The position numbers were made by a program, and so were the translations under genes. From Bacteroidales bacterium (GTDB lineage: Bacteria; Bacteroidota; Bacteroidia; Bacteroidales; WCHB1-69), in assembly GCA_017549765.1 (NCBI GenBank), contig JAFYNM010000004.1, forward strand, positions 65,161-129,160: DNA of 64,000 nucleotides, read 5' to 3'. Shown piece after piece: positions 25,032-59,754 of this stretch. Positions within the stretch are counted from its first letter, which is position 1, and each line of letters begins with the position of its first letter. The notes beneath the pieces were generated by a model. It was not told the DNA's origin. It saw only the letters and a program-made list of their open reading frames with translations, and made no database searches.

Positions 25032-25174
25032 AATATAATGGATTTCAATTACTTACTAAAAATAACATATTGACACATCAGAATTTTCGGATGTGCGCTT
25101 GTTTTTCCTTGCAAAAATTTTGCCAAAAAAGGATAATAGTAGAGGTTAGTGAAGAGGAGTCGTTTTGTTTGCTG

Positions 25175-26653
25175 CTATATCTCAAACATCTTTCCCTTAT
25201 TAAAACCATTGAACAAATGTTCGGAGTGTGAAACATAGCCCAATTGGTTGGAAAGAATCTGGGTTTGGCCAATTTGAGCGTCAATATTGCGGTGAGAATG
25301 TCCATAAATCCAATAATCGATGTCTGTATCAATTATGTAGTTACCTAGTTCCACAGTGAACGCTCCATTGATGATACTCCCTTTGAATTCTTCTGCGGTG
25401 CAAAGCGTTGTTGGTACGTGGTGTGTGAGAACTATTTTCGTAATGGCCTTGCTATTCGCGACCGCTGCCTTGATGAAATTCATACAACGCTCATGTTCGT
25501 GGTTGAAGTCGTCTGCCGTGAGTATGTGTCCGTTGTGTTTAATTCGATAGAAATCACTCACATTTCGTTCAGTATAATAGGCTTTATCCGGCTCTATATG
25601 GGACCAAAGGGTAGAAACAATAATGTCGGTATTTTCCAAATGAATTACGCTGTTATAGTATCCGTGTACATTGGCGCGAATGGTTTTGCAATAGCCGTCA
25701 GGGATGGTGGTGAGGTCATAATGCCCGTAAAAATCATGATTGCCAAAACATACGATCACTTGCTTGTATCGTTCCGAAGCCCAATCCCAAAAAGCATATT
25801 GTGAGTAAGTATCTTTACTGGAATTTGGGGGATCAAGGTAGGCGGTATCTCCTGCAATGAGCAATATATCCCCTGTAACCTCAAGAGGATGCTTTTCTAG
25901 AAAAATCCTGTTTTCTGGAAACTCCAAGTGCAAGTCGCTGACAAATTGAATACGCAATGTAGTAGGCTTCCATGCTGCCACGGTCTTTATTGTTTCCAAT
26001 ATCAAATCCGTCCGGTCCATTTCTTCCGAGGAGATCATACATTCTATTTCTTCCGAAAAATTGGGACGATCCATCATTTTGGCAAATTGTTCGGAAACAA
26101 ATACTTGTACGTTTTTATCTTCTTGTTTGAATTCTTCGAAAAATTCTGGACAATAATTCAACACATAGACAATGTCTTCAAGGTCCTTAGCTCCGCGCCA
26201 ATCTTCACCTCCGCGTGATAGAAGTGCTTCAATCTTTGTTGCGATATAATAGGTCACAGGCAATCGGTAGATGACCCTTCCTGAAGGCAAAGTATAAGGT
26301 TTGCGTTTGTTGAAACCGGGGTGATACCAGCTGTTGCCAAAAGAAAGACTTTTTTCCTCCATAGACATCACATCAACTTTTTCTCCGTTGAACACCCACC
26401 GGCACAGAGGCGCGTCAGGTGTCGGGTCGTTATTGAAGTGCTTGGCCCTCAGCAATTTTTCAAAGGCAATATGTTCGGCATAGTTTTTTGAATTAACCAC
26501 GCAGTCCACATCTAAAGTGGTACGTGGTTCAACAGCTATAGGATCGGTGGCATACAATCCAGCCATTGCACCACCCACATATACAAGTCTTTCATTGAGT
26601 TCTTGCATGCCCTCGGCAATTTCTTGCAGGCGTTCCTCATTTGTTTTCGGCAT
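25175..26653 (-). CDS. AbiEii-like nucleotidyltransferase fused to a calcineurin-like phosphoesterase
   Basis: 492 residues in two parts. Residues 1-about 225 are a polymerase-beta-fold nucleotidyltransferase of the AbiEii/AbiGii-like type. They show GG (27-28), the metal-binding DVD (48-50), a later Asp in VDVM (94), the family block APLCRW...SFGNSWY, and KIEALLSRGG...KDLEDIVYVL (140-164). Residues about 232-492 are a complete metallophosphoesterase: D-x-H (240-242), GD (268-269), GNHD (304-307), THH (410-412) and GHSH (451-454). The single-domain nucleotidyltransferase next to an HTH gene is a recurrent, toxin-antitoxin-like pair; the phosphoesterase fusion is what stands out. Both active sites look intact. 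The start overlaps the upstream regulator gene by 17 bp. Substrates are unknown. Confidence 0.8.
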   Translation of the reverse strand: MPKTNEERLQEIAEGMQELNERLVYVGGAMAGLYATDPIAVEPRTTLDVDCVVNSKNYAEHIAFEKLLRAKHFNNDPTPDAPLCRWVFNGEKVDVMSMEEKSLSFGNSWYHPGFNKRKPYTLPSGRVIYRLPVTYYIATKIEALLSRGGEDWRGAKDLEDIVYVLNYCPEFFEEFKQEDKNVQVFVSEQFAKMMDRPNFSEEIECMISSEEMDRTDLILETIKTVAAWKPTTLRIQFVSDLHLEFPENRIFLEKHPLEVTGDILLIAGDTAYLDPPNSSKDTYSQYAFWDWASERYKQVIVCFGNHDFYGHYDLTTIPDGYCKTIRANVHGYYNSVIHLENTDIIVSTLWSHIEPDKAYYTERNVSDFYRIKHNGHILTADDFNHEHERCMNFIKAAVANSKAITKIVLTHHVPTTLCTAEEFKGSIINGAFTVELGNYIIDTDIDYWIYGHSHRNIDAQIGQTQILSNQLGYVSHSEHLFNGFNKGKMFEI

Positions 26654-27152
26654 ATTGGTTCATTCTTTTGGTTAGTTCTTCAATGGCTATATTTTTTTCA
26701 CGAACACCTCCCATTCGCAGGGTATCCACTATAACAAGCAATTGGTATAGTTCATTGTCGTTCAGGACAGCCTCTGGCACGGATGTATATAGGGGGGTAA
26801 TTTGATGTCCCCGTGCAGTTCCTTGCACGTATCGCCACACATAACACTCTCCATTGTCGGTGATTTGTTCTTTTATGGGTGAAGCGCTTGTGTATGTGGG
26901 GATTCCTCGAATAACGCGACCTATTTCGGCAGGGAACACATACATGATACCGTGACATAAAAACTCATGCAATGCTAATGTATTGACTCGCTTTTTGTTG
27001 CGATCTAATAATTTCGCATTTCTGCACCGCTCCAAACTTTCACTCACACTGGATGCACTCATGCCCAACGACTCGGCCAATCCCCTGCAGGAAAGATTTT
27101 GTCCTTTGAAAGTTGTTTTTTTTAATAATATAACAATATCTTGTGGCTTCAT
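26637..27152 (-). CDS. Winged-helix regulator paired with the nucleotidyltransferase
   Basis: 171 residues. The N-terminal about 60 form an HTH/winged-helix (LSCRGLAESLGMSASSVSESLERCRNAKLLDRNKKRVN). The C-terminal part has YVFPAEIGRVIRGIPT and ends in LLVIVDTLRMGGVREKNIAIEEL. I recognise this architecture as the usual upstream partner of AbiEii-like nucleotidyltransferases. It probably acts as antitoxin and/or repressor. Its last 17 bp overlap the next gene, implying translational coupling. A palindrome lies between its promoter and start. Confidence 0.8.
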   Translation of the reverse strand: MKPQDIVILLKKTTFKGQNLSCRGLAESLGMSASSVSESLERCRNAKLLDRNKKRVNTLALHEFLCHGIMYVFPAEIGRVIRGIPTYTSASPIKEQITDNGECYVWRYVQGTARGHQITPLYTSVPEAVLNDNELYQLLVIVDTLRMGGVREKNIAIEELTKRMNQYAENK

Positions 27153-27184
27153 TTATCGTAAAATTAATTAGTTACATTAAAACG

Positions 27185-27200
27185 TTCGCAATTCGCGAAT
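27185..27200 (-). promoter_or_regulatory. Palindromic operator-like site upstream of the regulator gene
   Basis: The perfect 10-bp palindrome ATTCGCGAAT (27191-27200) overlaps a wider inverted pair TTCGC/GCGAA (27185-27189, 27195-27199). It sits a few bases downstream of the expected transcription start, where a bound repressor would block transcription. Confidence 0.5.
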
Positions 27201-27216
27201 TTCAAACATACAGCCT

Positions 27217-27247
27217 GCAAAAATAAAAAAAAAATGATATGATGAAA
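27217..27247 (-). promoter_or_regulatory. Promoter of the regulator-nucleotidyltransferase pair
   Basis: TATTTTTGC on the minus strand (27225-27217), with a weak TTTC-type -33 element about 18 nt upstream. Confidence 0.5.
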
Positions 27248-27300
27248 CACTGTGACAATTTGCATGTTTTGACACTATTTGACACTGAACTCCCCTCCCC

Positions 27301-27321
27301 TTAACTTCTTAGTTTCTTAAC
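27301..27321 (+). repeat. 21-bp repeat, upstream copy
   Basis: TTAACTTCTTAGTTTCTTAA plus C, identical over 21 bp to 35372-35392. The two copies flank the giant gene in direct orientation. Confidence 0.6.
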
Positions 27322-27413
27322 CCTTATGCTTCTTTCAATAGTACCAACAAATCAACAAATAAACAATTAAACAAAGCAACACCCCTCTTGCCTCCGTTTT
27401 CCCCCAAAATGTT

Positions 27414-59675: not shown

Positions 59676-59748
<73 letters not shown>

Positions 59749-59754
59749 CACCGA

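Follow-up and report, generated by a model that had tools for sequence, protein, structure and literature searches.

A nucleotidyltransferase–metallophosphoesterase fusion with a helix-turn-helix partner in a Bacteroidales genome, and phosphoesterases as recurrent neighbours of related nucleotidyltransferases

A stretch of 64,000 nucleotides from a gut-type Bacteroidales bacterium (contig JAFYNM010000004.1, positions 65,161 to 129,160; hereafter the window) was analysed for a two-gene unit on its minus strand, in which a winged helix-turn-helix (HTH) gene overlaps a gene that joins a nucleotidyltransferase domain to a metallophosphoesterase (MPE) domain. By comparison with related loci, phosphoesterases were found to be recurrent partners of AbiEii/M21-type nucleotidyltransferases, far above background, which is a new observation. 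The features of the unit are as follows.

26637..27152, minus strand: winged-HTH partner gene, 171 aa (PDC-M21A), presumed autorepressor or antitoxin; from its open reading frame (ORF) and a PADLOC match
25175..26653, minus strand: fusion gene, 492 aa plus stop; from its ORF, full-length in seven genomes
25967..26653, minus strand: nucleotidyltransferase domain, residues 1–229 (PDC-M21B; predicted MenT1 fold)
25178..25966, minus strand: MPE domain, residues 230–492 (PF00149; phrog_1649; predicted PptH-like fold)
27184..27201, minus strand: operator, GTTCGC plus the palindrome AATTCGCGAATT (plus-strand letters); from comparison with eight relatives
27216..27225, minus strand: putative Bacteroidota −7 box, TATTTTTGCA on the minus strand; position kept in relatives

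The gene pair, its domains and its operator

The two genes share positions 26637–26653. The HTH ORF, this 17-bp overlap and the fused enzyme gene were all recovered as given in a preliminary description made from the DNA letters alone, and so was every motif it had named in the fusion protein: GG27–28, D48-V-D50, D94, K140-x3-L144 and KDLEDI 156–161 in the nucleotidyltransferase, and D240-L-H242, GD 268–269, GNHD 304–307, THH 410–412 and GHSH 451–454 in the MPE. PADLOC assigned residues 5–227 of the fusion to PDC-M21B (2.3e-46) and the HTH protein to PDC-M21A (2.5e-46). Pfam Metallophos matched residues 234–455 at 46.2 bits (cut-off 21.5), and the metal-ligand positions D240, H242, D269, N305, H306, H411, H452 and H454 were identical in all 25 rows of alignment A3; the phosphoesterase is complete, as had been proposed. 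In Pfam searches up to E = 1, residues 1–229 gave no match, AbiEii (PF08843) included, and the HTH protein matched no AbiEi-type antitoxin family and only weakly some general winged-HTH models. The earlier assignment to AbiEii/MenT-type nucleotidyltransferases was borne out by the predicted fold, which matches MenT1 and has the GG, DxD, K and D motif layout. G27, G28, T46, D48, D50, K140, D157, E159 and D160 were identical throughout the 34 rows of alignment A5, and D94 was Asp in 33 of them. T46 aligns with T39 of MenT1, each two residues ahead of the first Asp of DxD; in alignment A6 (11 rows, four from viral contigs) this position held Thr in 10 rows and Ser in one. For the predicted MPE fold, PptH was the nearest solved structure (14% identity over the structural alignment).

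The palindrome AATTCGCGAATT, which the preliminary description had placed just after the promoter, is present at 27190–27201, and a conserved operator sequence was found around it when the upstream regions of eight relatives (L072–L077, L033 and L081) were compared. The element GTTCGC-n-ATTCGCGAAC-a-GCGAAC was complete in L073–L076 and L033 and altered in L072, L077 and L081, always in the same place, shortly past a box resembling TAnnTTTG, the Bacteroidota −7 consensus. Two of the three elements are retained in the window; the third, in the relatives, is GCGAAC. A second TATGTTTG lies at 27203–27210. In a sigma-70 scan, promoter-like sites were no commoner than in shuffled sequence. The conserved operator sequence would be compatible with autoregulation of the operon.

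Recurrence of the fusion and of linked phosphoesterases

The fusion is no assembly error, the HTH gene and the full fusion being present in seven genomes of five lineages. Of 393 genomes of the order, 84 contained matches, and the whole fusion was present in two of these, the window's own and G185 (72% identity). A scan of a named genome collection gave 10 loci, six of them with the whole protein at 70–73% identity (L072–L077), all from metagenome-assembled genomes titled Bacteroidia or Bacteroidales, five of which bear RUG names that we take to indicate the rumen; the HTH gene overlap was 17 bp in all six. L074 and G185 were taken as one genome, which gives the total of seven, and five lineages rather than seven were counted because L074–L076 are close kin. 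Substitutions were mostly synonymous in both halves of the fusion. Since synonymous sites were saturated in most other pairs, dN/dS is given for the L074–L076 trio (0.05–0.11 for the nucleotidyltransferase, 0.13–0.14 for the MPE); both halves are under purifying selection. It had been considered at the outset that the domains might be separate genes in most relatives and the junction an isolated accident. The domains are indeed apart in most relatives (whole fusion in 2 of 84 genomes), but the fusion is not isolated, and in some of the split cases the two genes are neighbours in an operon.

Linkage was assessed within the order at those M21 nucleotidyltransferase loci whose neighbourhood could be read, 29 in all. 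A phosphoesterase was fused or adjacent in 11 and absent from 18; two were fused, L041 had a separate MPE downstream with a 4-bp overlap, and eight had a PPP-type phosphoesterase upstream on the same strand at gaps of 39–148 bp (L053, L059, L064, L066, L071, L103, L111 with a truncated PPP, and L118). The PPP of L071, the only one scanned against PHROGs, was NinI-like, and the remaining PPP partners were identified with a custom profile. L033 (a remnant with MPE attached), G067 (contig end) and L119 (no readable ORF) were excluded, and L131, reached through its MPE (MPE–HTH plus a 35-residue remnant), stands outside the 29, among which the nucleotidyltransferase was split or shortened in L111, L116 and L120. 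At the M21 loci read, the nucleotidyltransferase gene has an HTH gene of the PDC-M21A family beside it; the pair is common, as the preliminary description had said, and already catalogued as PADLOC PDC-M21. None of the nine M21 loci found outside the order had a phosphoesterase neighbour, and none of six plasmid M21 loci (cyanobacteria, rhizobia, Deinococcus, Hymenobacter) had a phosphoesterase; in all six the HTH and nucleotidyltransferase genes overlapped or nearly did so. On a Legionella adelaidensis plasmid (L082), HTH, nucleotidyltransferase and MPE are three separate genes, the MPE being 23% identical to that of the window and in the same PHROG (1.7e-23). The L082 operon is followed in the same direction by GNAT, phosphotransferase, AAA ATPase and phosphotransferase genes. 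At L063, the M21 pair lies directly downstream of cas3 amid Cas-like genes in the same direction (cas3 alone was scanned).

The MPE family is shared with a second operon, named CL2–CL4. CL4 is an AbiEii-type nucleotidyltransferase (PF08843 at 22.8 bits against a cut-off of 22.5 in one of two members scanned), and CL2 is a partner of ~315–345 aa for which no Pfam family scored above cut-off in three members scanned. The 393 genomes yielded CL4 in 22, one locus apiece. Within 1.5-kb flanks, a same-strand MPE was found in 10 of the 22 and another same-strand Metallophos protein in two (L264, L270), which makes 12; L257 had an opposite-strand Metallophos protein, and nine had none, including L261 and L268, shortened by contig ends. 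From 104 Metallophos matches in 58.25 Mb (21 relatives' genomes), the chance expectation for an adjacent phosphoesterase was 0.3–0.5%. Binomial p-values of 6.9e-19 (11/29 M21), 1.2e-20 (10/22 CL4) and 8.6e-26 (12/22 CL4) were obtained, which are too small because the loci are phylogenetically non-independent; the excess itself is large. Three phosphoesterase types occupy the partner place (the phrog_1649 MPE, the NinI-like PPP and a third Metallophos type), and one MPE family accompanies several nucleotidyltransferases (M21B, CL4, AbiEi_2-linked and classical AbiEii). L078 has the order AbiEi_2–nucleotidyltransferase–MPE and the viral locus L169 has AbiEii (7.2e-44)–MPE, each with a 4-bp overlap ahead of the MPE; in L034 an AbiEii gene lies 1.9 kb away. 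An MPE-centred survey covered 154 domains gathered by similarity to the window protein (142 after removal of 12 near-duplicates), with L034, L078 and L169 labelled by hand. A same-strand nucleotidyltransferase lay within 2.6 kb of the MPE in 9 of 11 at 65% identity or more (including the L033 remnant), 11 of 18 at 45–65%, 7 of 48 at 35–45% and 1 of 65 below.

The MPE was also seen in other company. In L061 (by Pfam) and L068 (by clustering), the hsdM- and hsdS-like genes of a type I restriction-modification operon enclose MPE–CL2–CL4, and the MPE alone occurs in such operons of L051 and L069; in L044 it comes after hsdM. An MPE module in an hsd operon recalls PrrC of the prr loci. A second small metallophosphoesterase (~193 aa) lies beside or near the MPE in L046, L083, L161 and L225, the L046 copy matching PF00149.

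Losses, phage homologues and genomic setting

Six loci have kept the partner gene and the phosphoesterase but have a missing or damaged nucleotidyltransferase. L033 retains 35 nucleotidyltransferase residues in frame with the MPE, L131 about 35 and L081 seven (its contig ends within the MPE); CL4 is broken into two ORFs in L035, missing from L039, where CL2 is followed directly by the MPE, and shortened in L270. Several of these are draft assemblies, in which individual cases may be faults. In L111 a truncated PPP stands next to a split nucleotidyltransferase; no systematic search was made for loci that had lost the phosphoesterase instead. That the nucleotidyltransferase is lost while the phosphoesterase and the partner gene stay suggests a cost attached to the nucleotidyltransferase and not to the MPE. 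The preliminary description had also entertained the phosphoesterase as a second effector; a toxic role of this kind is made less likely by these loci and by the many phosphoesterase genes without a nearby nucleotidyltransferase.

From viral contigs, 80 of at least 403 MPE relatives were kept. CL4 adjoined the MPE in nine of the 80 and AbiEii in one (L169), duplicates counted. Viral CL2–CL4–MPE units (L158–L160, L163, L164, L166–L168 and L176), some beside genes that look like phage structural genes, resemble phage-borne toxin- or defence-like cargo. Seven annotated phages were opened; the MPE gene lay inside a tRNA array in four (Mx1 and the mutually related CcrPW, CcrColossus and Gurke) and not in a tRNA array in RAS14, BF and B23. 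With 10 near-duplicates dropped, tRNA genes were present in 8 of 70 viral MPE loci versus 0 of 80 ribonucleotide-reductase control loci, and four or more tRNAs in five versus none (p 0.02); all eight tRNA-bearing loci hold distant homologues (28–33% identity or lower). Pfam-confirmed RNA ligases were found in the flanks of at least five of the 80 (L172, L174, L185, L221, L225), a lower bound since they were located by motif, and one counted without a control set. The ligase is directly adjacent in L172 and L174, where the MPE of L174 lies between Thg1 and the ligase. PHROGs annotates phrog_1649 as 'metallo-phosphoesterase' only. Calcineurin-like enzymes of jumbo phages have been predicted to serve RNA-end clean-up and counter-signalling (PMC7824862).

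In the window, the HTH–fusion unit is a low-GC accessory insertion (42.4% GC vs 50.8% for the window and 56.3% for grpE–dnaJ), absent from the two relatives compared. By reading of translations, its neighbours are, on one side, dnaJ and grpE and, on the other, a gene whose 2627-aa product is a secreted repeat protein. The flanks recur at 93% identity in the sister genome G792, where a 225-aa same-strand ORF, by eye presumably a GDSL-type hydrolase, takes the place of the unit; in G786 the unit is absent and ~470 bp separate the flanking matches. Other same-genus loci (L241–L248) were uninformative because BLAST matches reached only the dnaJ–grpE side. When window positions 25140–27396 were compared with L239 and L240, the stretch from grpE to the surface-protein gene was variable, with another ORF in one and nothing in the other. 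The sole tRNA gene of the window, tRNA-Phe at 59676–59749, is distant from the unit.

Proposed mechanism, alternatives and known systems

The preferred reading, at a probability of roughly 0.43, is that of an AbiE/MenAT-like module whose toxin adds nucleotides, probably to tRNA, and carries the corresponding eraser in the same polypeptide. A toxin with its own undo function was proposed because related toxin-like genes often neighbour cutting enzymes; we infer for it catalysis, toxicity, DNA binding, a tRNA target, phosphodiesterase chemistry, reversal and an anti-phage role. The observations themselves comprise the gene structure and its conservation, the conserved operator, the predicted folds, the repeated linkage of phosphoesterases to nucleotidyltransferase operons and the loci from which the nucleotidyltransferase alone has gone. 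The unit would be a horizontally acquired toxin–antitoxin or defence-type module of the AbiE/MenAT kind. Its HTH protein would bind the operator before its own gene, repress the operon and probably neutralize the enzyme. The N-terminal MenT-fold toxin would form a phosphodiester bond between a nucleoside monophosphate (NMP) and its target, for which tRNA 3′ ends are the likeliest candidate, and the C-terminal PptH-like phosphodiesterase would cleave the NMP–target link or otherwise heal the modified RNA end. With writer and eraser on one polypeptide, the toxin would be self-limiting and reversible. PptH itself is described as a phosphodiesterase that opposes PptT and is inactive on a monoester test substrate (PMC8557913). 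The earlier suggestion that one polypeptide may both add and remove the modification is kept as the best available mechanism. More tentatively, AbiE/MenT-type toxins may in general have dedicated, linked eraser phosphodiesterases, with writer and eraser joined in this Bacteroidales clade into a self-resetting toxin that modifies and restores tRNA, and with solitary phage and bacterial erasers serving counter-defence or immunity against such toxins.

The phosphoesterase could instead switch the toxin on, by removing a phosphate that the nucleotidyltransferase places on its own T46 when induced by the HTH protein. T46 is invariant in 34 rows and equivalent to T39 of MenT1 (PMC11375011), and the sole PPP partner scanned is NinI-like; such reactivation is nevertheless unlikely, as conservation of T46 may reflect catalysis alone, PptH, the nearest MPE fold, hydrolysed a phosphodiester and not a monoester test substrate (PMC8557913), and retention of the MPE after nucleotidyltransferase loss would leave the activator without a substrate. 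RNA repair, in which damaged RNA ends would be healed by the phosphoesterase and filled in again by the nucleotidyltransferase, to protect tRNA and not to poison it, would suit the phage homologues near RNA ligases, near Thg1 and in tRNA arrays, and the calcineurin-like domains predicted as RNA-end cleaners in a few jumbo phages (PMC7824862). The toxin–antitoxin anatomy of the HTH–nucleotidyltransferase pair, the bare pair on plasmids, the MenT fold and the fact that the part seen lost is the nucleotidyltransferase and not the MPE all argue against repair, which is considered quite unlikely.

Pairing of a nucleotidyltransferase with a nucleotide hydrolase is known from other defence systems (PMC12265719), and phage calcineurin-like phosphodiesterases are predicted to target nucleotide signals (PMC7824862). 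A Clover-like arrangement is thereby conceivable, in which a small nucleotide is the product of the nucleotidyltransferase, and the phosphoesterase either acts as a restrained effector or degrades this signal; it is improbable given the MenT-like fold and the frequency of each enzyme without the other, which implies that neither needs the other and makes toxicity of the phosphoesterase by itself unlikely. Just as improbable is the absence of any functional link, with unrelated accessory activities brought together by shared mobile elements or defence islands: some neighbourhoods are indeed prophage-like contigs or type I restriction-modification operons, but the start–stop overlaps of a few bases, the same-strand order, the in-frame fusion in five lineages and the different phosphoesterase types in one place speak for a link.

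Among catalogued systems, both PDC-M21 (phage-defence candidate) models match the overlapping window genes at ~2e-46; M21A and M21B cover no phosphoesterase, and the window unit has an added domain. The name PDC-M21 was absent from the papers found by literature search, and neither the fusion nor the recurrent coupling was found in that search, made mostly at title and abstract level. The HTH–nucleotidyltransferase pair is known, as PDC-M21, and the phosphoesterase coupling is new. In Pfam, the HTH partner matched winged-HTH models and not HEPN, which sets the unit apart from HEPN-MNT, and the hydrolase is Metallophos with no HD-type dNTPase partner, which sets it apart from Clover. With MenAT/AbiE (DUF1814) it shares the fold, the GG-DxD-K-D layout, the phosphoacceptor Thr, an HTH partner and inverted repeats before the operon, but the phosphoesterase is fused on; it is called AbiE/MenAT-like and not filed as a member because the window proteins gave no Pfam AbiEii or AbiEi match. 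For MenT3, trimming of the damaged tRNA has been reported for two general tRNA enzymes, the CCA-adding enzyme PcnA and, in vitro, the ribonuclease RpH (PMC11541572). Autophosphorylation silences MenT toxins, and the main text of the paper that describes it names no phosphatase (PMC11375011). The recurrent phosphoesterase, here fused, would be a direct candidate for undoing the tRNA damage or the autophosphorylation mark; if this is true, a function is suggested for phage copies of phrog_1649.

PptT and PptH are encoded by separate genes with neighbouring locus numbers (Rv2794c, Rv2795c), and the PptH substrate is carrier-protein phosphopantetheine. DarTG, an ADP-ribosyl writer toxin with a macrodomain eraser antitoxin, follows the same logic of a writer toxin with a dedicated eraser, but its chemistry differs and it is not a relative; in the window unit the proposed writer and eraser share one polypeptide, and the HTH protein would supply a third function.

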